DNA of 64,000 nt from Candidatus Eisenbacteria bacterium (GCA_016930695.1 JAFGGD010000020.1:1-64000); one strand, 5' to 3'; positions 44,635 through 61,999 are shown, counted from the stretch's first letter. The notes: generated by a model from the letters alone, not told the origin. Made by a program: numbers and translations.

Positions 44635-45078
44635 ATGGCGCGAACGGATAATCCGGAAGGTACGGAAAAAGTGGCTTCGATCATCGCAGAAGGATGCACG
44701 TTCAACGGCACGGTCAACGTCAGCGGGAACATCCGGGTCGACGGGCGGTTCGACGGAAAACTGATCGTCTCGGACACGCTGGTCATCGGGAAAACCGGTA
44801 AGGTCCGTGCGGAGGTGGAGACCAAGGTCGCCACCATCGCCGGGAACCTGAACGGAGAGATCCACGCCCGGGAGGGTGTGAAGCTCCAGGCCGGTTCCCA
44901 CTTCGAGGGAAACATCTACACCAAGAACCTGGTCATCGAAGAGGGCGTATTCTTCGACGGCGGTTGTTGGCGTTCGGTGGAGGGAAAGGGGAAGGCGGAG
45001 AGCCGTCCCCAGCCGAAGCCGGAGAAGCAGGCCGCGCCCGCCGGCGCCCCGACAGGGGTGTCCGGACCGGGACGCTGA
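44635..45078 (+). CDS. Bactofilin
   Basis: The 147-residue protein has a central right-handed beta-helix of about 90 residues, read as repeating short strands with Gly turns (IAEGCTFNGTVNVSGNIRVDG, here as FNGTVNVSGNIRVDGRFDG; IAGNLNGEIHAREGVKL; FEGNIYTKNLVIEEG). A Pro/Lys-rich disordered tail follows. Bactofilins polymerise without nucleotide into cytoskeletal filaments that position cell-wall, stalk or polarity factors. AAAGGGGATG precedes the ATG. It is followed in the same direction by the corrinoid adenosyltransferase gene after 127 bp. Confidence 0.92.
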   Translation: MARTDNPEGTEKVASIIAEGCTFNGTVNVSGNIRVDGRFDGKLIVSDTLVIGKTGKVRAEVETKVATIAGNLNGEIHAREGVKLQAGSHFEGNIYTKNLVIEEGVFFDGGCWRSVEGKGKAESRPQPKPEKQAAPAGAPTGVSGPGR

Positions 45079-45784: not shown

Positions 45785-46282
45785 ATGATGGAAGCAAAAT
45801 GGCGCGCGGCGGTGGTGACGGTGAGCGACCGTGCTTCGCGGGGCGAGAGCGAGGACCGGAGCGGCCCGCTCGCAGCCCGGCTTCTGGAGGAAGCGGGGCT
45901 CGCCGTCGTCTCTCGAGCGCTCGTCCCCGATGAACGGGAGAGGATCGAGGAGACGCTCCGCGCTCTCGTCGATCGGGAACGCCCTCTTCTGGTCGTCACC
46001 GTAGGCGGCACCGGTTTCATGCCCAGGGACGTGACGCCCGAGGCGACCCTGGCGGTGATCGAGAAGCGAGCCCCCGGCGTGGAGGAAGAGATCCGCCGGT
46101 CGGGCGTCGCCAAGGGAGTGGTCCCCGCGCCGATCGGGCGGGGCGTCTCCGGTCTGGTGGGACGCACCTGGATCGTGAATCTGCCGGGGAGCATGGGGGC
46201 GGTGCGGGACGGGATGGAGGCGATCCGTCCCATCATCGATCACGCGCTGAAGCACCTCGGCGGGACGGGCGGTCACGACTGA
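45785..46282 (+). CDS. MogA/MoaB-family molybdenum cofactor protein
   Basis: The 165-residue protein starts AAVVTVSDRASRGESEDRSG and carries VVTVGGTGFMPRDVTPEATL, the substrate-binding signature of the MogA/MoaB fold, and WIVNLPGSMGAVRDGMEAI. Members adenylylate molybdopterin before metal insertion (MogA, or MoaB in species that lack MogA). The gene starts with ATG ATG; either codon may be used. It lies 60 bp after cobO and overlaps the convergent histidine kinase gene by 10 bp. No other moa/moe genes are visible here. Confidence 0.88.
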   Translation: MMEAKWRAAVVTVSDRASRGESEDRSGPLAARLLEEAGLAVVSRALVPDERERIEETLRALVDRERPLLVVTVGGTGFMPRDVTPEATLAVIEKRAPGVEEEIRRSGVAKGVVPAPIGRGVSGLVGRTWIVNLPGSMGAVRDGMEAIRPIIDHALKHLGGTGGHD

Positions 46283-47619
46283 CCGACGCCCTCAGCCGGA
46301 AAGACCGGTTCGGCGATCCCCTCTTCCTCTCCGTCCCGCGGCAGGCGGATGGTGAAGACGCTTCCGCTCCCCGGACTCGAGTCCACCGACACCGACCCTT
46401 GCTGCCCCTCCATGATCTCCTTCACCAGGCTGAGACCGATCCCGGCGCCGCCGTGGGCCCGTGTTTCCGAACCGTCCACCTGTCGGAAGCGATCGAAGAT
46501 GAGGGCGATCTCCTCCGGCGGGATTCCGTCGCCGGTGTCGGCGATGGAGAGGGTGACCTGATCCCCCTCCAGCCCGCTCGCGACGCGGACCCGCCCGTTC
46601 TTTTTGGAGAACTTGATCGCGTTGTCCATCAGGTTGCGCACCACCCGCTTCGTCCGATCCATGTCGAACCAGCTCTCGGGGAGCGCTTCCTTCAGGTCCA
46701 GCTGCAGGTCGAGATTCTTTTCTTCCATCTCGGGACGCAGCGCTTCGGTCACTTCCTGCACGAGCCGGTTGAGATCTCCCTTGCCCGGGCGAAGCTTGAA
46801 GGTGCGGTGGTCCATTTCCGAAAGGTCCATCACCTGCTCGATCAGATTGGAGAGCTTGCGGCCCGCCCGGAGAATCTGATCGATGAATTCCACCTGTTTC
46901 TCCCGGTCCACGTCGGGGTAGCGGAGGCATTCGGCGAAACCGATCACGGCGGTGAGGGGGGTGCGGAGCTCGTGGCCCATGTTGGAGAGGAACCGGCTTT
47001 TCATCCGGTCCAGCTCCTTCATGCGCTCGTTTCTCTCCTCCAGGGCGAGGTTCGCGTCGCGGAGCTCCCCGACCAGTTCGGCGTTGTCCATCACGATTCC
47101 GGCCAGATCGAGGATGGACCGGAGCATCTGTTTTTCGAAGGGAGAGAAGGAGTCCTGCCGGATCCGATCGCCGAGCAGGAGGATGCCGTTCAACTTGCCG
47201 TTTCCCCGGATCGGCGCGGCGAGGCGGATTCGACGGTCGATGAGAAAGCGGACCGCTTCCCGCTCCCGCTCCGGAAGTCCCTCCTCGCGGAGAGGAACCG
47301 GTTCACGGGCGACGCGGAGGCGGCGGGCGAAAACGCCGGAGAGGCGGATGTCGAGCCGGTCCCGGATCTCTCCCTCGCGGAGGCCGCGGGCCACCACCTC
47401 GAATCGGTCTTCTTCGCCGTCGCGGGCGAGGAGAATCGCCCGGGAGACGGAGAAGAGCCCCATCGCCGTGAGCAGGAGAAAGTCGTCGATCCGGCGGCGG
47501 TCCCGCACCATGACCAGCGAGCGGGTCAGCTCTAAAAGGGTTTCGAGCCCGTAGATCCGCTTCTGCAACGTCGCCGCGTCGGGCCCGTCCAGGATTGCTT
47601 CGGGGTGCGGCTCGGCCAT
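46273..47619 (-). CDS. Soluble sensor histidine kinase with GAF-like domain
   Basis: The 448-residue protein has no membrane segment. Residues 20-190 look like a GAF domain (FLLLTAMGLFSVSRAILLAR, RIRLAAPIRGNGKLNGILLL, 20 residues each). A coiled linker is followed by the HisKA box FLSNMGHELRTPLTAVIGF (phospho-acceptor His near 218) and a HATPase domain with NLMDNAIKFSKKNG (N box), IADTGDGIPPEEI and GGAGIGLSLVKEIMEG. No response regulator gene is adjacent. It is the last gene of a run with the partner-switching genes, 13 bp after the STAS gene, so it may feed that module. Confidence 0.9.
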   Translation of the reverse strand: MAEPHPEAILDGPDAATLQKRIYGLETLLELTRSLVMVRDRRRIDDFLLLTAMGLFSVSRAILLARDGEEDRFEVVARGLREGEIRDRLDIRLSGVFARRLRVAREPVPLREEGLPEREREAVRFLIDRRIRLAAPIRGNGKLNGILLLGDRIRQDSFSPFEKQMLRSILDLAGIVMDNAELVGELRDANLALEERNERMKELDRMKSRFLSNMGHELRTPLTAVIGFAECLRYPDVDREKQVEFIDQILRAGRKLSNLIEQVMDLSEMDHRTFKLRPGKGDLNRLVQEVTEALRPEMEEKNLDLQLDLKEALPESWFDMDRTKRVVRNLMDNAIKFSKKNGRVRVASGLEGDQVTLSIADTGDGIPPEEIALIFDRFRQVDGSETRAHGGAGIGLSLVKEIMEGQQGSVSVDSSPGSGSVFTIRLPRDGEEEGIAEPVFPAEGVGQS

Positions 47620-47632
47620 CGGCGTTTCCTCC

Positions 47633-48019
47633 TCAGATCCCGCCGGCGGTCTCGGCCGCCGTCAGGCGCTCGAGCGCGTCCGCGTCGTTGTCACCGATTT
47701 CGAGGAACTCGGTCACGTTCAGCACGTCGAAGATGCGGAGCACCGGAGCGGGGACGCGCAGGAAGACCACGCCCCCCTCGCCGCGCATCTCCTCCACCAG
47801 GGAGAGAAAGATGCCGATCCCCGCGGAGCCGATGAAAGAGAGCCCGCCCAGATCCACGAGGAAGCGGGTCGTCCCCTCCGCCCGGGCGCCGTCGATCGCC
47901 GCGATCGCCTCCGGAAGCCCTTCCGCGTCGAAGCGGCCCTGGAGGACGAGGCGGGTCACCGGCGGGTCCCGGTGAACGGTCTCCGCGGTGAGCCGAAAGT
48001 TCGTCTGTTCCGGGTTCAT
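47633..48019 (-). CDS. STAS-domain anti-sigma factor antagonist (RsbV/SpoIIAA-like)
   Basis: The 128-residue STAS protein contains VLQGRFDAEGLPEAI and VDLGGLSFIGSAGIGIFLSL. The Ser in FIGSAGIG is the residue phosphorylated by the cognate kinase in RsbV/SpoIIAA. Unphosphorylated, such proteins bind the kinase/anti-sigma factor and free its target. The ATG overlaps the RsbW-like stop (ATGA). With the phosphatase and kinase genes upstream, this forms a complete partner-switching set. Confidence 0.92.
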   Translation of the reverse strand: MNPEQTNFRLTAETVHRDPPVTRLVLQGRFDAEGLPEAIAAIDGARAEGTTRFLVDLGGLSFIGSAGIGIFLSLVEEMRGEGGVVFLRVPAPVLRIFDVLNVTEFLEIGDNDADALERLTAAETAGGI

Positions 48020-48567
48020 GCCACGTCCCCCCCGAGCCGGCCGCCCGGCCCGTTTCGCCGCGGGCGGTCTCGGTCAAAATATTTGATGAGTAGAAGATTG
48101 TTTTCCCCTCGAGGCGTTCTCCGATAGCGGACCAGGTCCATGGAGCGGCGGATGATCTGGATTCCGAAGCCGCGCCCGCGGAGCCGGATCAGCGGATCGT
48201 TTATATCCGGCGGCGGGATCCTCTCCGGATCCACGCCCTCGCCGTGGTCGGTGAAGGAGAGAACCGCCCGTTCCCGGTCCATCCGCGCACGCACGGTGAT
48301 CCGGGCCGAGCCGTCGAAGTGGTAGGCGTGCTCGATGATGTTGAGACAGGTTTCGTACGCGGCGATCTCCACGCGGTGGATCTCGTCCGGAGACAGGCCG
48401 CGCCGTTCCGCCAGAAGCGTGAGAAACGCGCAGAGCGGCCCCACCGCGTCGATTCGCGCGGGGATCTCCAGGCGGAACCAGCCGCCGTCCTGTCTCGGCG
48501 GGAAGGGGTAACGGTCCGCCTCGGGCAGGACCGCGTCCCGGCAGGTGGCTTCGGTGGCGTTGCTCAT
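48016..48567 (-). CDS. RsbW/SpoIIAB-like ATP-binding serine kinase (anti-sigma factor)
   Basis: The 183-residue GHKL protein has the N box RVEIAAYETCLNIIEHAYH, a G1 box SFTDHGEGVDPERI and a G2 box RGRGFGIQIIRRSMDLV. It lacks the phospho-acceptor His of two-component kinases. Proteins of this type phosphorylate the STAS partner and hold a sigma factor or another target inactive. The start at 48567 follows AAAGGAGAG. A proline-rich N-terminal stretch of about 30 residues precedes the fold. No sigma factor gene is nearby, so the output target is unknown. Confidence 0.9.
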   Translation of the reverse strand: MSNATEATCRDAVLPEADRYPFPPRQDGGWFRLEIPARIDAVGPLCAFLTLLAERRGLSPDEIHRVEIAAYETCLNIIEHAYHFDGSARITVRARMDRERAVLSFTDHGEGVDPERIPPPDINDPLIRLRGRGFGIQIIRRSMDLVRYRRTPRGENNLLLIKYFDRDRPRRNGPGGRLGGDVA

Positions 48568-48608
48568 CGGCTCTCCTTTCCGGTTATCGGTCCCCATCGC
48601 CTCCCCCT

Positions 48609-50150
48609 TTACGCGTCCACCGCGGCCGGGACCGCCGCCGCGCGCCGGATGCAGAGAACGGTGATGTCGTCGCTGGGCGGTTCGTCGCCGGTGAAGGCGC
48701 GCACCGCGCCGACCAGCCGGTCCACCGTTTCCTGGGCGGTCCGCTCCTCCACGCCGGCGAGCGACGCGAGGAGCCTCTCCGTGCCGAACTCTTCTTTCCG
48801 CGGGTTCGTCGCCTCGTTCACGCCGTCGGTGTACTGGACGAAACCGTCATCCGGATCGAGCGTGAAGGCGTCGTCCCGGATTCGCTCGTCGAAACGGTCG
48901 TCGCCGAAAAGGCCGAGCGGGATCCCCTCCGTCCCCAACGGATCGCCGAGGCCCCCCCGGCGCCGGAAATGGAGGAGTGGATTGTGCCCGGCGCTTGCGA
49001 AGACGAAACGGCCGGTGGGGATGTGGAGCACGCCGTAGAACATGGTGATGAACATTCCCCGGCGCAGATTCGGCCGGAGCATCCGGTTCAGTTCGGCGAG
49101 CATCGCCGCCGGCGAGTCGTGCCTCCTCGCGTGGGTGCGGAGGAGCGCGCTGGTCATCGCCATCACCACCAGCCCCGGGATTCCCTTTCCCGCCACGTCC
49201 GCCACGGTGATTCCCACGCGCTCGTCGTCGATCGGGATCAGGTCCCAGTAATCCCCGCCCACGGTGCGGGCGGACTGATGGAATCCGGCCACGTCGTATC
49301 CCGGAATGCCCAGGTTCGGGCGGGGGAGGAGTTTCTCCTCGATCTCGTGGGCGATCTCCAGCTCCCGGCCGAGCCGCTCCTTCTCGACCAGATCCCGCTG
49401 CGCCTCCCGGAGCCGCCCGGTCATCTCGTTGAAGGTGCGCGCGAGGACCCCCACCTCGTTCCGGCTCTTCACGACGATTTTGTAGTCCAAGTTGCCGCGG
49501 CCGATCTCCTCGGTGCCGCGGGTGAGCTGCTGGATCGGACGGACGACCCGCGAGGCGAGGAAGAGGGCGAAGACGAGGCCGACGCTGAGCGTTCCGAGAA
49601 GGACCGCCAAGGTGCTTCTCTGCGCCTCCCGGAGAACGGCGGCCAGGTGCTCCCGCTCCAGGCCGAGATGGACCGCGCCCAGTTCGCTTCCGTCCCGGTA
49701 GCGGACCGGAACGGTCACCTCGAGGATCCGGTCGTCGGCGCGGAACCGTTCGCCCGCTCCGCGGCCGAGTCCCGCCGTGAGCGGCCGGAAGTCGGGGCGG
49801 TCCTCGAAGGGGAGGTCCACGCGGCGCAGGTCCCGATCGCCGCGGATGCGGCCGTTGCGGTCCACCACCACCGCGTAGGAAAGCTCCCGGTTCTCCTCGA
49901 GCAGATCCTTGATGGCCGGGTGGAGGACGAACTCGGGAAACTCGTCGAGGAGCGCCGTCGCGCTCGTCGCGGAGAGGTTCCTACCCTGGGCGAGGAGGCG
50001 GCGGAGGGTCTCCTCCTCGAGCACCCCCTTCTCGCGTTCGATGATGATCCGCGCCGTGCCGAGTGTGAGCGCCGTGATCAGCACCATCACCGATCCGGCG
50101 AACACCCAGCGGAGCGGAATCGTTCGTTTCGCAACCGTTTCGCGTCGCAC
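48609..50150 (-). CDS. Membrane SpoIIE-type PP2C phosphatase with sensor and HAMP domains
   Basis: The 513-residue protein has a membrane segment at about 12-34, an extracytoplasmic sensor region (about 35-175), a second membrane segment (about 178-200), a HAMP domain (VVRPIQQLTRGTEEIGRGN) and a coiled linker. A PP2C/SpoIIE domain follows, with GGDYWDLIPID, GITVADVAGKGIPGLV, VQYTDGVNEATNP and PSDDITVLCIRR holding the metal-binding Asp residues. It would dephosphorylate the STAS protein in response to an envelope signal. The GTG start follows GGGAGG; the gene begins 7 bp after the PorV-TPR stop. Confidence 0.92.
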   Translation of the reverse strand: MRRETVAKRTIPLRWVFAGSVMVLITALTLGTARIIIEREKGVLEEETLRRLLAQGRNLSATSATALLDEFPEFVLHPAIKDLLEENRELSYAVVVDRNGRIRGDRDLRRVDLPFEDRPDFRPLTAGLGRGAGERFRADDRILEVTVPVRYRDGSELGAVHLGLEREHLAAVLREAQRSTLAVLLGTLSVGLVFALFLASRVVRPIQQLTRGTEEIGRGNLDYKIVVKSRNEVGVLARTFNEMTGRLREAQRDLVEKERLGRELEIAHEIEEKLLPRPNLGIPGYDVAGFHQSARTVGGDYWDLIPIDDERVGITVADVAGKGIPGLVVMAMTSALLRTHARRHDSPAAMLAELNRMLRPNLRRGMFITMFYGVLHIPTGRFVFASAGHNPLLHFRRRGGLGDPLGTEGIPLGLFGDDRFDERIRDDAFTLDPDDGFVQYTDGVNEATNPRKEEFGTERLLASLAGVEERTAQETVDRLVGAVRAFTGDEPPSDDITVLCIRRAAAVPAAVDA

Positions 50151-50157
50151 CTTCCCG

Positions 50158-52224
50158 CTAGCCTCCCGATAGCGCCTTCGCCTTGCGGATCTCCAATCGC
50201 GCCCTCCGGACGTAGGAGAGCGCCTTCTCGTCCTCCGGATCGATCTCGAGAATGCGTTCCCACTCCCGGATCGCCTCGCTCATGTCCCCTTCCGTGTATC
50301 GGTCCATGCCGAGGAAAAGATGGGCCTGTTTCAGGTAAGAGCGGACGTTTTCGTAGTCGGGCGCCAGCCCGTAAACGAATTGGAAATAGCGGACCGCCTC
50401 GTCGTAACGCTCGTCGCCGAGGGCGTCCACGCCGGATCGGTACATCCGCCCCGCTTCTTCGCGTTCCTCCGGCGTCGGCTCGCGCCGTCTTTCCGGCGCC
50501 GCTTCGGTCGCGGTCGCCGCGCCGCCCTCCCCCGCCGTCTCCGGTTCCGCGGCGGGCGCCTCGAGGCGGGCGATTTCCCGGACGAGATCGTCGCGATCCG
50601 GTCGGAGGGCGAGCGCTTCCCGGTAGCGATCCTTCGCCGTTTCCGGCCTCCCCCGGTCGCGGAACCAGGCCGCCTCTTCCACCAGATCGTCGATACGAAG
50701 CGCGATGAGCGAATCGGTCCTCACCCGGTAGGAACTCGCGTCCGGGTTGTCCGGCGCGATTTCGATCGCCGCGTCGAACTCGTCCCGGGCGCGGAGCAGG
50801 TCGGAGAGGGCGAGGTATTCCACGCCCCGGGTCAAGTGCTCGCTTACCTCGCGACTTCGCTCGGCGCTCCGGTTCAACCGGTCCGTCGTCTCGGCGAGTC
50901 GCCGCGCCGCCCTTTCGTCCTCCGGAGAAACCGCGAGCGCCGCCCGGTACGCCGCCACCGCCTCGAGCAGATTCCCCTCGGCGAGGCGGGCGTCCCCGTC
51001 CGCCACATGCCGTTCGGTGCGGGCCCTCCCGAGACCGGCGAGCGCTCTCTCATCGGCGTCGTCCCAGAGCAGCGCCCTCTCGAAGCGCGCCTCCGCGCCG
51101 ATGAAGTCCCCCGCCTTCAGAAGCTTTTCCGCATCGAGGACGTCCGCGTCGATCTGTTCCCGCTCCTTCCTCTCCAACTCCTCGCCGGTCCGACGCGCGA
51201 GCCTCTCCTCCTCCTCGGCTCGGCGGCGTTCCCGAAGCGTGTCCAGAGGCGCGCCGAAGGAGAGAGTGACGCCGAAGCGGTGCGCGTCCCCCAGCTCCCG
51301 GGAGGCGAAGGCGTAATCAAAGCGGCCGGCGTGGAAAGAGAGGCCGAGACCGGCGGCCCACTCCTCGCCGTCGGCGCCGCCTCGGAAGGCGATCCCGCCG
51401 GGGAGGCGGTACTCGACGCCGAAGCGCGCTCTCCCGCCGCTCTCCTTCCCCTGATCGAGCCCGGCGAGTAGGAGCGCCTCGCCGCGGTCGCCTCCGGCGA
51501 GTGGAACGCGGAGGGCGGCGCCCGCGCGGAGGAGACGGGGGAGGCGGTCCTCGCCGTCCGCCATCGCGAGGGTCGGTTCGAGAACGTTCCGGATCGCGAG
51601 GCCGAAGCGGAGGTTCCGCCTCGAGAAGAGGCTCCGATCGCCGTCGTCGGCGCCCACCTGGATCCCCAGGTCCGCGCCGAAGGAGGTGGCGGAACGCCCG
51701 TCCAACGCGTGGGTCTCCGCTTTCAGGTTCGCGCCGATCCGGACCGGACCGAGGGGCGGGAGCGCGTAAGCGAGAATCCACTCGTTCTGGCGGTCCGTGA
51801 AGACCCCGTCCTCGGCGCCGCCGGCGTCGAAGCGGCGGATATCGTCCATGCCGTAACGGAGGTTCGCGAAGGAGACGGTTCCTCGGTCGAGGAAGGGGTG
51901 TACGTAGCCGAAGAAGGCGTAGCGGTTTCCTTCGACGAAAGGCGAGGTGTAAAAGAAAGTCATCTCTTTGCGCTTCGCCCCGGCCATTCCCGCCGGGTTC
52001 CAGGTCACGCCGGCCGGACCCTCTGCGAGGGCGACGTAGGCGCCTCCCAGGGCGAGGGCGCGCGCGCCGGCGCCGAAGGCGAAGGGAGACTCGGTGCCGC
52101 CGCTCTCCTCGGCGTACGCCGAAGGAGCGGTGGCCCACGCCGTGGCCCACGCCGCGAGGAAGAGCGCGCCGCGCCGGACGGCCCGTTCCGCGCTAATTGA
52201 GAACAGCGATCTTGTGGATCGCAT
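50158..52224 (-). CDS. PorV-like outer-membrane protein fused to TPR repeats
   Basis: The 688-residue protein has a signal peptide (cleavage near SAYA-EES at about 38). A beta-barrel of about 300 residues follows that opens FGAGARALALGGAYVALAEG and GVTWNPAGMAG, the start of UPF0164/PorV-type proteins (the T9SS shuttle PorV and PorQ relatives). The C-terminal half (about 345-688) is a helical TPR array (LKAGDFIGAEARFERALLWD, FQFVYGLAPDYENVRSYLKQ). PorV binds the C-terminal domain of type IX cargo, so this protein may handle the giant neighbour. The gene starts 32 bp inside the giant gene, with GGAGGGAGAG as ribosome binding site. The fusion to TPRs is unusual. Confidence 0.82.
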   Translation of the reverse strand: MRSTRSLFSISAERAVRRGALFLAAWATAWATAPSAYAEESGGTESPFAFGAGARALALGGAYVALAEGPAGVTWNPAGMAGAKRKEMTFFYTSPFVEGNRYAFFGYVHPFLDRGTVSFANLRYGMDDIRRFDAGGAEDGVFTDRQNEWILAYALPPLGPVRIGANLKAETHALDGRSATSFGADLGIQVGADDGDRSLFSRRNLRFGLAIRNVLEPTLAMADGEDRLPRLLRAGAALRVPLAGGDRGEALLLAGLDQGKESGGRARFGVEYRLPGGIAFRGGADGEEWAAGLGLSFHAGRFDYAFASRELGDAHRFGVTLSFGAPLDTLRERRRAEEEERLARRTGEELERKEREQIDADVLDAEKLLKAGDFIGAEARFERALLWDDADERALAGLGRARTERHVADGDARLAEGNLLEAVAAYRAALAVSPEDERAARRLAETTDRLNRSAERSREVSEHLTRGVEYLALSDLLRARDEFDAAIEIAPDNPDASSYRVRTDSLIALRIDDLVEEAAWFRDRGRPETAKDRYREALALRPDRDDLVREIARLEAPAAEPETAGEGGAATATEAAPERRREPTPEEREEAGRMYRSGVDALGDERYDEAVRYFQFVYGLAPDYENVRSYLKQAHLFLGMDRYTEGDMSEAIREWERILEIDPEDEKALSYVRRARLEIRKAKALSGG

Positions 52225-55200
52225 GATCTCTCCCTCCTCCGTCGTAGACGATCTCCACCGAGGCGAGGTAGCCGCCGCTCAGCACGCGGTCCCCCTTGCC
52301 GTTCCGTCCGTCCCATTCGATCTCGACGAGCCCCGCCTCCGTCACCCTCTTTTCCAACGTTCGGACCGGCGCGCCGAGACCGGTGTAGATGCGGATCGAC
52401 GCCCGCCCCGCGGCGCCGGCGTAGAAGGCGAAGACCGCGGCGCCGTCGGCCGGGGTAAAGGGATTCGGATAGCTGCGCAGGCTCTCCCGGAAGCCTTTCT
52501 CCGCGAGGTGAGTCCATGAGGAGGGGTTCGCGCCGCCGTCCCCGTTCGCCCGGTCCACGAGCGGTCCTTGCTCCTCGAGGAGGATCTCCTCCAGCGGAAG
52601 ACGGACGCGAAAGGAGGAGACCGTGGGGCTTTCCGCCGTTTCCAAGTCGATCGCGAGCGTGAGGGTCTCCGCGGGCGCCAGGGTGAGCGCCGGGTCGAAA
52701 AGAAAGCGCAGGCGATCCGGGGCGAGGATCGCCTCCACCGGTTCCGCCCCTTTCGCCGGTCCCGAGGAGGCGCCCCGCACCGCTTCCGCGGGGGCGATCG
52801 TCGAGCCTCCCGGTCCCTCGAATCGCAGGGAGAACTCGGCGAGGTGCGCCGCCGCCGTCTCCTCGCCGCCGGAGGGGAGAAGGCGGAGCGATCCCGCGCC
52901 GGCGACGAGCGCGCCGGGAATGGCCACGGCGGGAAGGGTCAGGTCGATCCACGTCTCCACCCGATCGCTCGTCTTCCTTACCGAGAGGAGTGGGGAGCGG
53001 GCCGCCGTCGGGTCATCGCCGAGGAAGTGAACGGCCACGGGAGTCGACTCGTTCTCGTCCGCGGCGGCCACCGCGGTCGCGGGAAGGACGAAGCGATAGC
53101 CGCCGGGCGGGGCGTCCGCCTTCAGATCCGCCTGGACGCGGATGAGCGCCGAGCCGCCCGGTTCGACGGTCAACGTTTCGGAGAAGGGGAGCGCCAGCGA
53201 CGCCGCCCCTTCCTGCACCGGCGCGGCCGAAGCGAGGGAGCGGTCCCCCTCGCGGACCCGGAGTCTCTCCACCAGCGACCGGATCTCCGTCGAGTCGCCC
53301 GCCTCGTTCTCCAGCCGGATCCGCACCCCGTCGAGGCGGACCGCGGCGCGCGTCGAATCCCCTTCATGAATGAAATGGATGTGGAGCACCTCGCGGTCCC
53401 TGTCGCCGGGCCTGGCGACGGAGGAGTCCGGGGGCGTCTCGACGAGCGCGGCGATGGAGTCGGTTCGCACCGAAACCTCCGACTCCATCGGCCCGGTGAG
53501 GCGGAGCACCACCTCCACGGTTCCCCCGTCGGCGGCCGGCTTGGGATCGACGAAGGTGCTCTCCGCCACGCCGAGGCGGAAGGGGCCGAGCGGCGCGAAG
53601 GAGTCCACGTCGCCGGCGATGAGGATCTCGATCGGGTTGTTCGGCGGTACGGTGAGTTGCGGATCCAGGGAGAAGACCGCCTCGCCGTCCCGCACGATCC
53701 AACCGTCGCCGTCGAAATGGGTGATCCCCGGTCCGGTGATCCGCGCGCTTTCATAGGGGAAGAGGCCGTCGGACAGGCCGATGTGAATCGCCGAGAGGAC
53801 CACGTCGGCGGTGACGCCGGTGACGCCGCGGCTTTCCACCACGCAGCGGAGGATCCGGGCCGAGCGGGCGCCCCGGTTCACCCGCGGGGGCGGGCCTTCC
53901 GTCACTTCCACGACCAGGCTGTCCGGCGGGATGACCACCTCTGCCAAGCCGGTCGCGAAGGGGAAGCCGCCCCCCACCGGGACCGGCGCGTTCGAGTTGG
54001 CGTCTCGGGCGGCGAGCGAACCGGCGCCGGCGAGGATCGCGCGGAGCGCGGCCGCGCCCGGATCGCCGTGGAGGTCGATGGAGAGGCCGAGCGTCGCTTC
54101 ATCGCCCGGCTCGAGGAGTATCGGTTCGTCGAGGGGGATCGCCGCCTCGGCGGCGCCGAACTCCGGCGCTTCGACGCGGCCGATGGGCCGCCCGCTTCGC
54201 TCCGCCGAAAGGGCGTCCAAGAGGAGGGCCGGATCGAGCGGAGCGCCCGTCTCGCCGGCGAGTGCGACGCGCACCGTGTCGATCCGGATCGGAGCGGCGT
54301 CGCTCGACGCCCCGTCGTCGTGGGAAAGGGTGAGGAGAAAGAGCGACACGCCGGTCTCGCCGCGGGCCACCGATCCGGGGAGGGTCGCCGTTGCCTGGAC
54401 GGTGACACCCGAGGGGACCGCCTCCACAGTGAGCGTCGGGGAGATCGTCGGCAGGGCGCGGACCGTATCCCCGCCGGTTTCCACCGCCCTCGCCTCGCCG
54501 CTGAACCAGGCAGAGCCCGTGCTTTCGGCGCGCACCGTCCAGGTGAAGAGCGCCTCTCCGCCGGCCGCGAGGCTCTCCACCGAGGCGGGCGAGGGGCCGG
54601 AGAGGATGATCGCCTCCGGACCGAGGGGGGCGAAACCGACGGGCTCCACGTCCAGGAAGATGCGCGGGTCTTGAGCGGTCACGTTCTCCACCGCCATCTC
54701 CACCTCCAAGGTTTGCCCCACGCTCGCGCGGTCCGCGGAGAACCGGATGTCGGCGAAGACGGGAGAGGTTGATATGTAAAACAGAGACGCCGAGGGGACC
54801 GGGTCGTCCACCGGTCCGTCGTTGCCGGAGCGGAGCGTGAGACCGTTTTCGGGAAGGGCGAGCAGCACCGTCCGTCCCTCACGCGCGTCGGCGGAGGCGT
54901 CCACGCGAACGCGCAACGTCTCCCCCGGCGCTTCGACGGGGAGGCCGATCCCCTCGCGCGCCCAGACCGATCCGTTCCAGACCAGTTCGCCGATCACCTC
55001 GTCCGCGGCGCCCCCGGAGAGGACCAGACGGGAGATGTCGACCGCGTCCGCCGTCCCCTGACGGGCGATCCGCACGCCCTCCAGCGTGTCCGGGCGGCAT
55101 CCGTTCGGGGGGACGACGAAGGAGAAGGCGAGGCATCCCGTCTCGAAGGGGGCGATGGCGCCGCCGCCGGCCGGGAGGACGCGGATCTGCGCCGCCGCCA

Positions 55201-58200
55201 TCCCGTCCACCACCGGTTCCGCGGAGAGGAGGGGGAAGGCGCCGGAGAGGCTCCTCTCCCCGAGGAAGCCGAATGCGGCCGCCGATTCGATCGCGATCCG
55301 GACCGTGTCGCCGTCGGAGGCGCAGAGGAGGCCCACGTCGACGGAGAGGCGGAAGAGCGGGTCCTCGCCGGGCGGGATGAGCGCCGTGAAGCCCTCCAGC
55401 TCGGCGACGCCGTCCAGGAAGGGGGCGGACGCGATCGGATCGAACGCCGGGCTTACGTCCTTTCCGGCGCCGGATGGACCGAACAGATAAACCCTCGGCG
55501 TCGCCTCGTCCGGGTTCGGGCCGCCGCTCCGGTTGGCGACGAAGAGCCTTTCGAGGCGGACCGTGTCGGCGTACACATTGGAGAGCCGGAAGGAGAGCAT
55601 CTCCCGGTTCTCCTCGCCGGGGAGCACCGGGCCGCCGGAGCCGCGTTCGGGATCGGTCAGCACCACCCGCTCCGCGCCGCCCAGCACGCGCAGTTCCGGG
55701 CAGAGCGCGGTGGTGTCCACCGGCCCGTCGTTGGCGGATGCGAGAATGACGCCGTCCATCGGCACGCCGAGCAGGACCGTGCGCCCGTCGACGGGATTAT
55801 CCGTCACGCTCGCCGACACGAAGAGCCGGAAGCCGCCGGCGGGGACCTGTTGCGCCAGGCCGGATCGGGACCATCCGTCGCCGATCCAGTAAAGCGCGCC
55901 GAGATCCGTGTCGTCCTCTTCCCCGCGGTCGTAGAACCCGTTGCCGCCGTCCCGCCAGATCCGGAGTCCCGCGAGGTCCGTTCCCGCTTCCGCGTCTCCC
56001 AGGTTGCGCACCGTGAGCGCGCGGAGTTCGTCGACGGCGTAACCGTTCGAGGGGATTCGGATGGAGAGGACGAGGGAATCCTCCGATCCCGCGGGGAGGC
56101 TGGGCGGGAAATCGCCCCGAGGATCGAGCTGCCCGGCGACCAGTCCGTCGACGAAGTGGGCGCCCGGCGAGTCGAGGGGGAACGCGCCCGCCGGGGTGGC
56201 GCCTTCCGCGAAGACGAGATCGGAAGCGCCCTCCACGGCGAGATCCAGCTCCTCGCCGTCCGGCGCCTGGAGGAGGGAGAGGTTCCCGGTCACGAGAAGG
56301 GAGACGGTGTCCCCCGCGGGTACGGCGAGTTCGAGCCCATCGAGAAGGAGCGCGCCTCCGGAAAGCGTTCCCTCGCCGAGGACGGGATCGGTGGGATCGG
56401 CCGCGCCGTCCCGGTCCGCGTCTTCACGGAGCACGATCCGGTCCCAGAGGAGATCTCGGGCGGCGATCGACCCGGCCCCCGCGCCGGAGTCGGCGAGGCG
56501 GATGGAGGAGAGGTTTTTCTCTGAGAGGTAAAGGTTCGCCAGATCGACGCGGAGGAGGGGAACGTTCTTCGCGCCGGGGTGGACCACGACCCCCTCCAAT
56601 GGGGGCGCCGTCGCCTCCACGTAGGGAGGGAGAAGGAGGAGCAGGTTGGCCGAGGCGCTCACGAGCTTGTCGAAGGGGGCGCCGTTTCCGTCGACGCCGT
56701 CGGTTTGGAAGAGGATCTCGTAATCGCCCGGGTCGAAACCGGCCGGGATGCCGCTGGGGTCGAAGAGGGCGATGCCGGATCCCCCGTCTCCTTCGAGGGA
56801 GAGGTCGGCGGAGAGGAACGCCTCGTAGGACGCGGCGCCGTCGGTGAAGGTGAATCGCGTGCCGCTCCGGAGCAGGAGGGAGGCGGCGCCGTCGTTCCGG
56901 AGGGCGACGGAAAACGCCGCGTCGTTCCCCGCCACCGCGCGGTTCGGCCGAAGCGTGCCGGCCAGGTCGACCAGCACGGGCGGGCCGGTGACGGTCCACC
57001 CGCCGACGGCCGACGCGTGGAGCGCCGCCACCGCGTCTCCCCCGGCGGCGAGGGCGGCCGACGCGGACCCGTCCACGGCGATCGGGATCCCGGCGACCGC
57101 GTTCTCCGCCACGTCCACCAGGAACAGAAGCGTGTCCGACTCCCCGTCCGCGAGCGGGCCGTCGAAGGGGATCGGCGTCACGGTGTAATCGCCGCTTCGG
57201 TCCTCGCCGCCGGAGGCGAAGGCGAGCGCCCCCTCGAGATCGAGGAGCGTGTCGCCGGTCCGGTTGGTGACGGCGAGCGCCACCGGGAGACCGCTCTCTC
57301 CGCGGGTCGCTCGCTCACGGGATTCCAGCACCGCGTCGACGACGAGGCCCAGATCGTCGAAAACGGTCACCGCCGCGGTGTCGGCCGCGCTTCCCGCTGA
57401 GGCGGCCACCGCACCCTCGCCGGCGCTCTCCGCGCGGAAGAGCCCTACGCCGTCGACGGAGCCGACGCCGCCGATCACCGTCCAGGCGATCGGGCCGGTC
57501 GTCGGGTTCCCTTCGCCGTCGTAAGTATGAGCCGTGAAGGATATCTCTTCGCCCGCGAAGACCGTGAGGGACGAAGGATCGAGAATCAGCGATCGCGTCG
57601 GGCCGGCGGTGACGGTGATGGGGCCGCTCTCGCCCGTCACGGCGCCGAGCGCGACCCTCGCCGTGTCCGTGCCGGGGCGGTCGGGCTCGAAATGCCCCGT
57701 CGACGGATCGAGGGATCCGATTCGGGACGCGCCGCTCCAGACCGGGTCGCCGGGGTCGTCGATCACGTTGCCGTCGCCGTCACGGGCCACGGCGGTGAAG
57801 TCGAGGGACTGTTCGGTGTGGAGGGTCGCGGTGAAAGGGACCACATCCAGGGAGGCGAGGGCGCCGGGGACGATGAGGACGCGCGCGGTGTCCGCCAGCC
57901 CCGAGGCGGAGGCGACCAGGAGAGCCTCGCCGGTTTCCCGGGGATGGAAGAGGCCTTCCCCGTCGACGGCGCCGAGGCCGGTCGGTTCGGACCAGGCCGC
58001 GCCGGGGTCGAAGGGGTTTCGGTCCGCGTCCCAGCCGACGGCGGCGAGGAGGAGGCTCTCGTCGGCGGTGAGAACGGTATCCGCCGGGAGGGCGGCGAGG
58101 GAGTCGAGTCGGCCGACGGAGAGGTCGATGCGCGCGCTGTCCGACGCCGGGCCGACGGAGGCGACGACCCACCCTTCGCCGGGGGCGGCGGCGTCGAAGA

Positions 58201-60019
58201 ATCCGGAGGGATCGATCGATCCGATGCCGCCGGAAACGCGCCAGACCGGCGTCGTGTCGATCTCGGCGCCGCCCGAGTCGAAGACGCGCGCGGTGAAGAG
58301 AATGGTCGTGTCGGTGGTCGCGTCCGCCTCGGGCGGATCGATCTCGATCCGCGAGGGGAGGCTCGGCGCTACGGTCACCGTCGCCGTGTCCCGGAAGCCG
58401 GAGGCGAGACCGATGACGATCGCCTCGCCCGGCGCGGCCGGCAGGAAGACGCCCGTGAGAGAGATCGAGCCGATCTCCGGCTCAACGGACCACTTGGCGG
58501 TGACCGCCCAGGGGTTGCCGTCTCCGTCGAGGGCGTAGGCGCGGTAGTGGACCATGTCGTCGACGGCGATCGCCGTGTCCGCCGGAGAGACGAGAAGGGC
58601 GGCCATCGCCCCGTGGGTCACGCTCACCGAGGTGGAGCCCGCCGCCGCGCCCGCCTCGGCGATCACCTCGCCGGTCCCCTCCTTCGCCGGGTCGAAGAGG
58701 CCGGACCCGTCGATCGCCCCCACATCTCCCTCGATCCGCCAGTCCGGATCGATCGGGAAGAGGTATCCCGTCTCGTCCTCGCCGATGGCGGTGAAGAGAA
58801 GCGAAGAGTCGGCGTCGACGATCGGGTCCTTCGGGTCGATCCGGAGGCGGATCGCTTCACCCGGCAGCACCGTCACGAGGCAGTCGTCGCCGTTCCCCGG
58901 CGCGCCGTCGGCGTCCCCCTCCGGGAGCTCATTCGGCGGCGAGGTGGTCCGGGAATCGTCCACCAGCACCGGCAGCCTCGCCCCCTCCGGGTCCTCGACG
59001 CCGGGCGCCTGGACGGTGAAACGAACCTCCAGCAGGCCGTCCTCGGCGACCGGTTCGTCGAGCGCGACCGCGAGGGTGTCGACGCCGCTCGCGTCGGACC
59101 AGCCGACCGCCCCCCCGTTCCAGAGGATCTCCGACGGGGCGGGCGAGGCGTATCCCTCGGGCAGGGGGAGGAACAGGCGGTTCACGCCGGTGTCGATCCC
59201 CTGACCGCCGAAACGGAGCGCCGCATAGGCGGTCATCTCCGCCGTCGACCCGGGGGAGATCCGTTTCGGCTGGATCTCCGCCGTGCCGTCCTCCACCGCG
59301 GGGAATGTGTCCCCCTCGGCGCTTTCATACACGATGGTCAGCCGCGGACGGAGAGTCTCGTCCGCGTGCTCGCTCGCCGCGAAGGAGACGATCGCCGCCG
59401 ACCCGCTTCCCCGCTTCAGGAAAACGCCGAGGTTGGAGTCCGGCTCGGCGATCCACTCCTCCACCAACTCCGGAACGGACCAGCTGATCCAGCCGGGGGA
59501 CCCGTCGATCGGGGCGTCGTCGACGACGGCGCCGAAGTCTCCGCCCGTTTGGTTCCACAGGAAGGGGAGGAAACGATAAAACCAGTTCACTCCGGAGAAG
59601 CGCTCCGCGGTCCCCTCGATCCACTCATTTCGCGCCGGCCGCGCGCCGATCCGCATCGGAGTCGTATAGGGATCGTCGACGGTCCAGACGTTTTTTGCAT
59701 AAAGAGAGAGTTCGGCGGAGAGGATCGTCGCGTCGCCGGGGAATTCCGGAAGGGTGAAGCGGAGAAGCGCCCGCCAGTCGTTCTGACCGGCGGAAATCTG
59801 GATCGGGATCTCCTCGATCTCACCCGGCTGCGACCCGTCGGTGAAACCGACGATGAGGGAGTCCTCGACTCCGGTGGCTCGGTAGGGGGCGATGTTCGCG
59901 ATCCACGCGTCCGCTCCCTCCGCGCCGTCCGGCTGGAGGATCACGGTCCTCTCCGACGCCGCGGCGAGCGGAGAAAGGAGCGACAGCATGATCAGGACAC
60001 AAAGAAACACTCGACCCAT
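52193..60019 (-). CDS. Giant secreted multi-domain surface protein (2608 residues)
   Basis: A signal peptide (about 1-21) is followed by a DNRLRE-like domain (about 24-235, ending LRPRLTIVYES). Six consecutive Ig/BIG2-like units of about 83 residues span about 388-885, each with a Trp-Ser-Val strand, IGSID-type turn and GLFxP motif. A long series of beta-rich modules follows, two of which share GRTVLL, a variable stretch and then NDGPVD. The last 95 residues are a FlgD-like Ig domain (SYPNPFTPADGAAVFAFYAG, WDGRNGKGDRVLSGGY), the sorting-type end seen in FCB-group secreted proteins. There are no transmembrane helices apart from the signal. It is probably a surface adhesin or sheath component exported through a type IX-like route. 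Confidence 0.85.
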   Translation of the reverse strand: MGRVFLCVLIMLSLLSPLAAASERTVILQPDGAEGADAWIANIAPYRATGVEDSLIVGFTDGSQPGEIEEIPIQISAGQNDWRALLRFTLPEFPGDATILSAELSLYAKNVWTVDDPYTTPMRIGARPARNEWIEGTAERFSGVNWFYRFLPFLWNQTGGDFGAVVDDAPIDGSPGWISWSVPELVEEWIAEPDSNLGVFLKRGSGSAAIVSFAASEHADETLRPRLTIVYESAEGDTFPAVEDGTAEIQPKRISPGSTAEMTAYAALRFGGQGIDTGVNRLFLPLPEGYASPAPSEILWNGGAVGWSDASGVDTLAVALDEPVAEDGLLEVRFTVQAPGVEDPEGARLPVLVDDSRTTSPPNELPEGDADGAPGNGDDCLVTVLPGEAIRLRIDPKDPIVDADSSLLFTAIGEDETGYLFPIDPDWRIEGDVGAIDGSGLFDPAKEGTGEVIAEAGAAAGSTSVSVTHGAMAALLVSPADTAIAVDDMVHYRAYALDGDGNPWAVTAKWSVEPEIGSISLTGVFLPAAPGEAIVIGLASGFRDTATVTVAPSLPSRIEIDPPEADATTDTTILFTARVFDSGGAEIDTTPVWRVSGGIGSIDPSGFFDAAAPGEGWVVASVGPASDSARIDLSVGRLDSLAALPADTVLTADESLLLAAVGWDADRNPFDPGAAWSEPTGLGAVDGEGLFHPRETGEALLVASASGLADTARVLIVPGALASLDVVPFTATLHTEQSLDFTAVARDGDGNVIDDPGDPVWSGASRIGSLDPSTGHFEPDRPGTDTARVALGAVTGESGPITVTAGPTRSLILDPSSLTVFAGEEISFTAHTYDGEGNPTTGPIAWTVIGGVGSVDGVGLFRAESAGEGAVAASAGSAADTAAVTVFDDLGLVVDAVLESRERATRGESGLPVALAVTNRTGDTLLDLEGALAFASGGEDRSGDYTVTPIPFDGPLADGESDTLLFLVDVAENAVAGIPIAVDGSASAALAAGGDAVAALHASAVGGWTVTGPPVLVDLAGTLRPNRAVAGNDAAFSVALRNDGAASLLLRSGTRFTFTDGAASYEAFLSADLSLEGDGGSGIALFDPSGIPAGFDPGDYEILFQTDGVDGNGAPFDKLVSASANLLLLLPPYVEATAPPLEGVVVHPGAKNVPLLRVDLANLYLSEKNLSSIRLADSGAGAGSIAARDLLWDRIVLREDADRDGAADPTDPVLGEGTLSGGALLLDGLELAVPAGDTVSLLVTGNLSLLQAPDGEELDLAVEGASDLVFAEGATPAGAFPLDSPGAHFVDGLVAGQLDPRGDFPPSLPAGSEDSLVLSIRIPSNGYAVDELRALTVRNLGDAEAGTDLAGLRIWRDGGNGFYDRGEEDDTDLGALYWIGDGWSRSGLAQQVPAGGFRLFVSASVTDNPVDGRTVLLGVPMDGVILASANDGPVDTTALCPELRVLGGAERVVLTDPERGSGGPVLPGEENREMLSFRLSNVYADTVRLERLFVANRSGGPNPDEATPRVYLFGPSGAGKDVSPAFDPIASAPFLDGVAELEGFTALIPPGEDPLFRLSVDVGLLCASDGDTVRIAIESAAAFGFLGERSLSGAFPLLSAEPVVDGMAAAQIRVLPAGGGAIAPFETGCLAFSFVVPPNGCRPDTLEGVRIARQGTADAVDISRLVLSGGAADEVIGELVWNGSVWAREGIGLPVEAPGETLRVRVDASADAREGRTVLLALPENGLTLRSGNDGPVDDPVPSASLFYISTSPVFADIRFSADRASVGQTLEVEMAVENVTAQDPRIFLDVEPVGFAPLGPEAIILSGPSPASVESLAAGGEALFTWTVRAESTGSAWFSGEARAVETGGDTVRALPTISPTLTVEAVPSGVTVQATATLPGSVARGETGVSLFLLTLSHDDGASSDAAPIRIDTVRVALAGETGAPLDPALLLDALSAERSGRPIGRVEAPEFGAAEAAIPLDEPILLEPGDEATLGLSIDLHGDPGAAALRAILAGAGSLAARDANSNAPVPVGGGFPFATGLAEVVIPPDSLVVEVTEGPPPRVNRGARSARILRCVVESRGVTGVTADVVLSAIHIGLSDGLFPYESARITGPGITHFDGDGWIVRDGEAVFSLDPQLTVPPNNPIEILIAGDVDSFAPLGPFRLGVAESTFVDPKPAADGGTVEVVLRLTGPMESEVSVRTDSIAALVETPPDSSVARPGDRDREVLHIHFIHEGDSTRAAVRLDGVRIRLENEAGDSTEIRSLVERLRVREGDRSLASAAPVQEGAASLALPFSETLTVEPGGSALIRVQADLKADAPPGGYRFVLPATAVAAADENESTPVAVHFLGDDPTAARSPLLSVRKTSDRVETWIDLTLPAVAIPGALVAGAGSLRLLPSGGEETAAAHLAEFSLRFEGPGGSTIAPAEAVRGASSGPAKGAEPVEAILAPDRLRFLFDPALTLAPAETLTLAIDLETAESPTVSSFRVRLPLEEILLEEQGPLVDRANGDGGANPSSWTHLAEKGFRESLRSYPNPFTPADGAAVFAFYAGAAGRASIRIYTGLGAPVRTLEKRVTEAGLVEIEWDGRNGKGDRVLSGGYLASVEIVYDGGGRDHAIHKIAVLN

Positions 60020-60232
60020 ACGGCCTCCCGAAGCTCTCCGTATCCGCAGAAACCCTCACCCGATGGATCGGCCTAAAGCGTTGTAATGCTTAGCGGTTTC
60101 GGATTAAAAAGGACCGAAACGGTTCTCTTTCGGGGGAAGGAAAGGGGAGGCGGGAAAGGAATCGCGGGAGCGCGTGGAGATATTTTCTTGTAACACGTTG
60201 TCGATAAACGAGAAAGCGGGGTTCGGGCGAGG
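60020..60232. other. Gap upstream of the giant gene
   Basis: The 213 bases hold a hairpin (GTTTCGG at 60096-60102 with CCGAAAC at 60114-60120, loop ATTAAAAAGGA). On the minus strand a TACAAC lies at about 60080, a possible weak -10 for the giant gene. GGGAGG precedes its ATG. No gene is supported. Confidence 0.4.
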
Positions 60233-61999
60233 CTACCCGCCGAGATAGCCGAGGGCGCGGAGTCGCTCTCTTTCCGCATCCTCGAGACGGATGACCGGGG
60301 GGGGCGCGCCGGGCGAGGGGGTCCAGCCGACCAGGAAATCGGACCGGGCGGCGGCCTCCGGGCCGGGCGGATCGAGCGCGCCTTCGGGGGCGGCGGCGGG
60401 ATCGAGAACGAAACGGGGGGCGGGCGGCGCGGATCCCTCGGGGCCGACGGCGATCCGCGTTCCTTCTTCCCGGGAGCCCCGGGTGAGCAGGAAACGGACC
60501 GCGCCGTCGGGGGGAACGACGCGCATGCGGAACCCTCCGGCGACGCCGGCGGGGGCGGTGAATCGGAAGGGACCGTTGCCGGAAGCCTCGGTTCGGAAGG
60601 ACGCCGGACCGAGGGGGAGGATGTCGATCACGACGCCGGAGGGATCGATCGCGCCTTCCACCGGTTCGTCGCCCGCGTCCCACCGGATCGTCCAGCCGCC
60701 TCCGTTCTCCTCCGTCGGCGGTCCGGCGAGAGCGGTCCCTCCGGCGTCCGGCGATGCGGCGCGCCCCGCCCGTTCCGCGGGATCGGCGGCGCGATCATAG
60801 ACGCGGGTCCCCTCGCGGTCCCAAACGAGTTTGTTCTCGCCGCGGAGGGCGGCCCGGCCGTACCGGCCCTCGCGGGTCGTGCCGGCCAGAATCGTCCTCC
60901 CCTCCCCCTCCTCGTCGAGGGGGCGTCCGTCGAGCCCCTCCGGCGCGGGGAGCCCGGCGATGCGGAGGAGCGTGGGGAAGAGATCGACCAAGCTGACCGG
61001 ATGCTCCACCGTTCCGCCGCCGGGGCGGCCCGGATCCCGGAGGAGGAGGGGGACGCGGAGCACCTCGTCGTAAAACGTGAAGGAGTGACCGAAACTGCGG
61101 TGCTCCTGAAACTCCTCGCCGTGGTCTCCGGTGAGCACCACCACGGTTTTGTCCCAATCCCCCGTCTCCCGGAGCGCGTCCAGCAGCCGTCCGATCCAGA
61201 GATCGGCGTAGCGAACTTCGCCGTCGTAGAGCGCCTCCACGTGCTCGAGGTCGCGATCGTTCATCAAGGAATCGACCGGAAAGTACCGGCTCAGCGACCG
61301 GAAGGAGCCGTCGACGTCGCCATTGTAGTCCGGATCGAAGAGCGTGGTGTAAGGCTCCGGCGCGGCGTACGTCCAGTGCGGGTCGAAAATGTGGACCAGC
61401 AGGAAGAAGGGGCGGCTTTCGTCCCGCTCCCGTAGCCAGCGGATCGCCTCGCCGGCCACCCGTTCCGCGCGCGGTTCGCGCTCCTCGTCGAAGCGGTAGT
61501 CTCGGGTGACGCGGAATTCCTCGAAGCGGTCGAAGCCGGCGTCGAAACCGTAAACGCTTGATGTGTAAATGTGAGAGACGAAAGCGGCCGTGGCCCACCC
61601 TCCCTCGCGGAAAGCGGCGGCGAGGGTCGGGAGGTCGGGGCGGATCGCCAGGTAGTCGTTGGTTGCGCCGTGTTCCCAGGGGTAGCGCCCGGTGAGAATC
61701 GAGCCGAAGGCGGGGAGCGTCCAGGGAGCGGTGGTGTAGGCGCGCTCGAAACGGAGCGACTCGGCGGCGAGGCGGTCCAGGGAGGGGGTGGTTTCGCGGC
61801 CGTATCCGTAGGAGCCGAGACGGTCGGCGCGGAGGGTGTCCACCACCAGAAGGAGCACATTGGGATGCTCCCGCCGGGCGGCGCAGGAGGCGAAGAGCGC
61901 CGCGCCGAGAAGGAGAAAGAGAAGCGGGAGGAGCCGCCGCTTTCCCTTGCGCGATTCCCCGCGGCGGGCTCCGGTTCTTTTCTTTCCTTCGTTTATCAT
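60233..61999 (-). CDS. Sulfatase-fold lipoprotein with C-terminal insert (Thr type)
   Basis: The 588-residue product has a basic leader and a lipoprotein signal ending FASC (Cys near 39). The fold is sulfatase-like: NVLLLVVDTLRADRLGSYGY, and VVVLTGDHGEEFQEHRSFGHS with intact metal ligands. The nucleophile loop reads TTAPWTLPAFGSILTGRYP, with Thr (T-L-P-A-F) in place of the formylglycine Cys, and Ser and Arg also lost. A beta-rich insert of about 160 residues (about 410-570) precedes the closing RLRALGYLGG. The ribosome binding site is weak. It begins 16 bp after the C25 peptidase gene ends, so the two may be co-transcribed. Confidence 0.8.
   Translation of the reverse strand: MINEGKKRTGARRGESRKGKRRLLPLLFLLLGAALFASCAARREHPNVLLLVVDTLRADRLGSYGYGRETTPSLDRLAAESLRFERAYTTAPWTLPAFGSILTGRYPWEHGATNDYLAIRPDLPTLAAAFREGGWATAAFVSHIYTSSVYGFDAGFDRFEEFRVTRDYRFDEEREPRAERVAGEAIRWLRERDESRPFFLLVHIFDPHWTYAAPEPYTTLFDPDYNGDVDGSFRSLSRYFPVDSLMNDRDLEHVEALYDGEVRYADLWIGRLLDALRETGDWDKTVVVLTGDHGEEFQEHRSFGHSFTFYDEVLRVPLLLRDPGRPGGGTVEHPVSLVDLFPTLLRIAGLPAPEGLDGRPLDEEGEGRTILAGTTREGRYGRAALRGENKLVWDREGTRVYDRAADPAERAGRAASPDAGGTALAGPPTEENGGGWTIRWDAGDEPVEGAIDPSGVVIDILPLGPASFRTEASGNGPFRFTAPAGVAGGFRMRVVPPDGAVRFLLTRGSREEGTRIAVGPEGSAPPAPRFVLDPAAAPEGALDPPGPEAAARSDFLVGWTPSPGAPPPVIRLEDAERERLRALGYLGG

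Follow-up and report, generated by a model that had tools for sequence, protein, structure and literature searches.

A giant surface protein gene and a PorV-type barrel gene linked to a partner-switching module in Candidatus Eisenbacteria and other bacterial phyla

The stretch analysed here, referred to as the window, comprises 64,000 nt of Candidatus Eisenbacteria bacterium (GCA_016930695.1 JAFGGD010000020.1:1-64000) and carries six minus-strand genes spanning 46273-60019, as seen by the gene listing of the window and domain searches. In the order of transcription, the gene of a giant surface protein is followed by those of a PorV-type barrel with tetratricopeptide repeats (PorV-TPR), a SpoIIE-type phosphatase, an RsbW-like kinase, a STAS antagonist and a histidine kinase (HK), the junctions between them measuring -32, +7, +11, -4 and +13 bp. 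An earlier note on this DNA had described six genes with these domains in one leftward run, with overlaps or gaps of at most about 40 bp; all six lie on the minus strand where it placed them, and the measured spacing stays within that limit. The members of the run are as follows:

52193..60019, minus strand: giant surface protein, presumed cargo, 2608 amino acids (aa), with an N-terminal hydrophobic segment, a DNRLRE domain, a long body and a FlgD_ig tail
50158..52224, minus strand: PorV/PorQ-family outer-membrane barrel with TPR repeats, presumed shuttle of the giant, 688 aa, seen by domain searches, profile and predicted fold
48609..50150, minus strand: SpoIIE-type PP2C phosphatase with an sCache_3_2 sensor and HAMP, GTG start, seen by domain search
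48016..48597, minus strand: RsbW-like kinase with HATPase_c_2, seen by domain searches, N-box E...N intact
47633..48019, minus strand: STAS antagonist, seen by domain searches, with the phospho-acceptor serine in FIGSAGIG
46273..47619, minus strand: histidine kinase with GAF (below cut-off), HisKA and HATPase_c, seen by domain search

The window's phylum is represented in this data set by seven genomes of one family. The whole order, from the giant to the HK, is kept in each of the four relatives with a contig covering the run (G001-G004), and a 4.3-kb contig of a further genome (G005) carries the giant, PorV-TPR and SpoIIE genes up to its end; in the assembly of G006, no close PorV-TPR match was found. 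The HK, which the earlier note counted as a member of the run, keeps this place in the four spanning relatives of the window's own phylum and does not belong to the run outside it, the constant part being the chain from the giant to STAS.

Beyond the family, the best matches of the window PorV-TPR are switch-linked ones: each of the top three (in G015, G051 and G059) directly precedes a gene in which kinase and phosphatase are fused (RsbW-SpoIIE), with STAS behind the fusion in G015 and G051. Within the phylum of G051, KSB1/Calditrichota, the fusion was found in 76 of 82 genomes and in 48 of the 49 good ones, and 33 of the 36 primary loci show the order giant, PorV-TPR, fusion and STAS (among them L091, with broken frames); the remaining three are cut by contig ends, and the chain is present wherever the contig reaches. 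Further lineages have the same chain, or its unfused form in G035 and G263. The STAS proteins of the switch-linked loci share the tag SSAGWGIF, and when GTDB contigs were scanned with nothing but the STAS alignment, 336 relatives came up, of which the best 80 were kept, from Zixibacteria, KSB1, Calditrichota, an Ignavibacterium and others. Although this search was blind to surface genes, the giant, PorV-TPR and RsbW-SpoIIE genes lie upstream on the same strand in 42 of the 46 STAS loci with at least 6.5 kb of upstream sequence. By our own estimate, about 0.03 same-strand PorV-SpoIIE neighbours within 2 kb would be expected by chance (9 SpoIIE and 12 PorV-type matches in 3.78 Mb), and conservation across phyla rules out a chance or recent linkage. 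Thus, the physical linkage described in the earlier note is kept in the relatives, both in the window's phylum and in several others, and the lack of conservation that the note had named as a refutation was not seen.

The linkage is not universal in either direction. Other PorV-family matches in the same genomes, as well as those at L046, L050 and L051, do not adjoin SpoIIE. Likewise, not every RsbW-SpoIIE fusion is linked to surface genes, as three KSB1-phylum genomes of one family carry a second, longer fusion (1836-1990 aa; L120-L122) that is unlinked.

The switch proteins of the window keep the residues expected of them. The RsbW-like kinase matches HATPase_c_2 with 82 bits and the STAS protein matches STAS_2 with 44 bits, while the SpoIIE protein has two hydrophobic membrane segments (13-31 and 181-199) flanking the sCache sensor, which is predicted to lie outside the cytosol. 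Across 104 PorV-bearing loci, the N-box glutamate is kept in 100 and the asparagine in 101 of 102 aligned kinase domains, the phospho-acceptor serine in 94 of 95 STAS proteins, and the metal-binding PP2C aspartates of SpoIIE are near-invariant, those of the window included. In addition, STAS from a KSB1 relative has a predicted fold like RsbV of the RsbV/RsbW complex. The catalytic residues of the switch are therefore intact, and the proteins have the features of an Rsb/SpoIIA-type kinase, STAS antagonist and phosphatase, from which partner exchange itself is predicted.

Kinase and phosphatase are separate genes in the window, whereas they are fused in KSB1, Zixibacteria and others. In KSB1, Calditrichota and Zixibacteria, STAS and the RsbW-SpoIIE fusion end in homologous modules of winged-helix-like kind (hhalign E 3.5e-14), the fusions giving HTH_28/HTH_32-type matches; the proteins of the window have no such module. 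In the SpoIIE tree, the window group joins the loci of the G035/G263 type (support 99/98), most fusions fall in another group (91/77), and the window genome's own SpoIIE paralogues lie outside both. The tree thus gives no support for placing the linked loci together in one SpoIIE clade, and this split suggests that the unfused and fused layouts may have been assembled separately or diverged early. One locus (L165:9357-14371) carries tandem switch genes, with SpoIIE, STAS and RsbW followed by a reverse-order SpoIIE-RsbW fusion and a second STAS.

Regarding the surface pair, the FlgD_ig tail of the window giant (residues 2524-2589, 35 bits, above cut-off) resembles the C-terminal domains of the type IX secretion system (T9SS); the T9SS type A sorting domain itself gave only a sub-threshold match, on a giant from the KSB1 phylum. 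The PorV-TPR family profile matches PDB 6h3i_F, the PorV of the SprA complex (1e-12), and the same chain is the top PDB match found by Foldseek for the AlphaFold model of the window protein, built on a 35-sequence alignment, in which a barrel is followed by TPR helices (predicted local distance difference score, pLDDT, 87.5). As the predicted TM score (pTM) of the model is 0.54, the position of the TPR arm against the barrel is unsure. NF033709 scores 77 bits on this protein, under its cut-off of 90. Profile and predicted fold together confirm the barrel as PorV-like, with the TPR arm as an extra part.

SprA, the presumed translocon, is encoded elsewhere in the window genome (G000:C45), where SprA_N scores 62.9 bits against a cut-off of 27 in an open frame of 2113 aa. 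The same domain occurs in 15 others of the 20 genomes tested from these lineages, including G006, where the run was not detected, and the profile search did not find it in G035, G151, G291 and G420. In three of these four (G151, G291 and G420), the genes around the fusion are arranged differently, while G035 is an exception, having the giant and PorV-TPR beside unfused switch genes, yet no SprA match. Sixteen of the 20 genomes encode SprA with no detectable GldM, that is, a type IX-like translocon lacking the known motor. At two loci (L157 and L159), in genomes without a SprA match, a PorV of 464 aa and an RsbW-SpoIIE fusion follow an RNase II-like gene (the domain was checked in L159), with no giant.

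The genes downstream of the switch vary by lineage and include GGDEF, Obg and DUF456/DUF4159 genes. In 31 of 80 loci, mostly of Zixibacteria (within L175-L241), the next gene after STAS is an open frame with a GG[DE]EF motif, and in 19 a ParA/BcsQ-like ATPase gene lies ahead of STAS. At L180, the single locus checked by profile, the GGDEF protein after STAS is followed by Wza- and Wzz-type genes. In a locus of Calditrichia (L228:10757-15498), STAS is followed by DUF456, DUF4159 and DUF4175 genes, with similar gene sizes in related loci. The window genome has four GGDEF genes, all on other contigs and none in the run.

Upstream of the run, the following features were found:

60020..60232, minus strand: gap of 213 bp before the giant, holding a terminator-like site (60133-60114; terminator scan)
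60233..61999, minus strand: sulfatase, upstream of the giant and outside the conserved core (domain search), also present in the relatives G001 and G004
62016..64000, minus strand: 3' part of a PorU-like C25-peptidase protein, outside the conserved core, 1601 aa in full, with a C25 propeptide and a FlgD_ig tail

The C25-peptidase gene extends beyond the window end, to about contig position 66821, and its 1601-aa product scores 198 on NF033707, whose cut-off is 420. No terminator-like site was found at the junctions inside the run, and one lies in the 213-bp gap; the scan is weak evidence, as it found 10 sites against 9.0 expected in shuffles, and a promoter scan found nothing. From this layout, the transcript of the run likely begins in the gap at 60020..60232. 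Near the 3' end of the run lies a bactofilin gene (44635-45078), whose position is kept in the four spanning relatives (L040-L043).

Considering these data, there is good support for an association between the switch and surface export, and the run is read here as a single functional unit that couples a partner switch to the cargo and shuttle pair of a type IX-like export route (probability about 0.6). Conserved order speaks for association and not for a direction of control or a target. Thus, the earlier proposal of a switch sensing or regulating surface export or assembly stands as to the linkage, seen in gene content, order and conservation across phyla; we infer the cargo identity, the signal, the direction of control and the target. 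In the proposed mechanism, the giant would reach the surface via SprA, carried by its dedicated PorV-TPR shuttle, while the SpoIIE sensor between the membrane segments would respond to a signal in the envelope, for which the condition of the surface layer or of the shuttle is a plausible source. SpoIIE would then strip the phosphate from the STAS serine and the RsbW-like kinase would restore it, and free STAS would act on something other than a sigma-B/F factor. For Zixibacteria, the adjoining diguanylate cyclase would be the likely target, as SiaD is of SiaC, with exopolysaccharide export genes behind it, whereas in the window's phylum the target would be encoded outside the run and the HK could be a further input. 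The switch would in this way tie the cargo and shuttle pair to a surface-attachment programme. More tentatively, and less likely than not, the switch would be of a new class, integral to the type IX-like route, in which the periplasmic TPR arm of the shuttle talks to the SpoIIE sensor, so that passage or absence of the giant sets STAS phosphorylation, with an output free of sigma factors. In the fused form, the homologous winged-helix-like module of STAS and the kinase-phosphatase may be the output device.

Several observations weigh against the coupled unit. G001 and G004 have a second giant and PorV-TPR pair with no switch (L044 and L045), so that the pair can work alone. GldM, a known T9SS motor part, was not detected by GldM_1st in any of the 20 genomes searched, a diverged motor being possible, and the export route may therefore differ from T9SS; together with the SprA exceptions, this makes type IX-like the safest term. 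STAS has no GGDEF gene behind it in KSB1, Calditrichota or the window's phylum, which rules out a diguanylate cyclase as the general target. Finally, the RpoD/RpoS-like and FliA/WhiG-like sigma factors of these genomes could be targets.

This last point leads to the explanation that the switch acts on a sigma factor with its gene outside the run, most likely of the RpoS-like group-2 or FliA/WhiG type, the surface genes being merely part of its regulon. Partner switches are best known for the control of stress and sporulation genes. Matches to sigma region 3 number 2 to 8 per genome in 20 genomes, and 18 such sigmas from seven genomes were classified; from the window genome, these comprise every match over the cut-off apart from the long RpoD, six in all. 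Four of the six fit RpoD/RpoS models best and the other two FliA/WhiG models, and each of the remaining six genomes contributes two classified sigmas. Moreover, CrsR, with a kinase/anti-sigma domain and PP2C in one polypeptide, sequesters RpoS, and HsbR acts likewise (PMC6482189). Against this, none of the 18 is of SigB/SigF/SigG type (the best TIGR02980 score being 143 against a cut-off of 234 bits; ECF, or extracytoplasmic function, sigmas were not searched), which sets aside a sigma-B/F target encoded elsewhere in the seven genomes. Besides, the conserved block was not seen to include a sigma gene as a regular member, whereas a diguanylate cyclase comes after STAS in 31 of 80 loci. The statement of the earlier note that no sigma factor is encoded here holds for region-3 sigmas, none of which was found on the window's contig (ECF sigmas not searched). 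Hence a sigma-controlled regulon is considered unlikely, and the output probably does not pass through a sigma-B/F factor.

A doubtful but somewhat better placed alternative, which overlaps the coupled unit, takes export as input only: the switch would sense completion of the surface layer or the load of the shuttle, with its output elsewhere, for example in growth or envelope stress. The sensor SpoIIE gene directly after PorV-TPR, the sCache sensor predicted outside the cytosol and the lineage-variable downstream genes, as if the output were exchangeable, all agree with it, while genes of a single run are usually co-expressed, which favours feedback. By comparison, it is highly improbable that the linkage is a historical accident, with an operon kept for co-expression and no functional contact between its halves. 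The switchless pairs of G001 and G004 and the unlinked second fusions (L120-L122) speak for such an accident; however, the order is kept across distant phyla with the switch both fused and unfused, and the chain recurred in the search that was blind to surface genes.

The feature is real and conserved, and apparently undescribed: open-access full text held no relevant paper on PorV with SpoIIE or on type IX secretion with partner switching, an absence that is not proof. The operon is near-universal in at least one phylum (KSB1/Calditrichota) and occurs also in Zixibacteria, an Ignavibacterium and the window's small phylum, thus giving a defined, testable gene set for surface control in mostly uncultured bacteria and adding candidates for partner switching with no sigma-B/F target. 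The conserved linkage suggests a so far undescribed connection between surface construction and the regulation of the cell.

Among known systems, BtrU-BtrV-BtrW of Bordetella likewise ties a SpoIIE-type phosphatase, a STAS protein and an RsbW-like kinase to a secretion system; however, this is type III secretion, the locus includes the BtrS-BtrA regulatory pair, and it lacks the arrangement of cargo and shuttle followed by the switch. SiaABCD of Pseudomonas aeruginosa and BgrSTUWV of Sinorhizobium meliloti are partner switches with a diguanylate cyclase output (PMC8457831), resembling the Zixibacteria layout with GGDEF after STAS. They differ in having no surface cargo or shuttle gene as described and in SiaC, which is a DUF1987 protein rather than a classical STAS, while the window run has no GGDEF gene. 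The fused form of KSB1 and Zixibacteria is similar to CrsR-CrsA and HsbR-HsbA, where phosphatase and kinase domains share one polypeptide with a STAS-type partner (PMC6482189), but those have a receiver-domain input instead of a membrane sensor, another domain order and no reported surface genes, and the window proteins are unfused.

On the export side, T9SS pairs of the SprB-SprF type are likewise adjacent, the gene of a large surface protein with a sorting domain at its C-terminus adjoining that of its cognate barrel shuttle (PMC12618676). Those shuttles belong to the PorP/SprF family and go with type B tails, whereas here a PorV-type shuttle with a TPR arm precedes a partner switch. Most knowledge of how type IX-like secretion is regulated comes from Bacteroidota and concerns PorXY and SigP; PorXY-SigP is likewise dedicated to a type IX system, and differs in acting through a two-component system and an ECF sigma instead of a partner switch.

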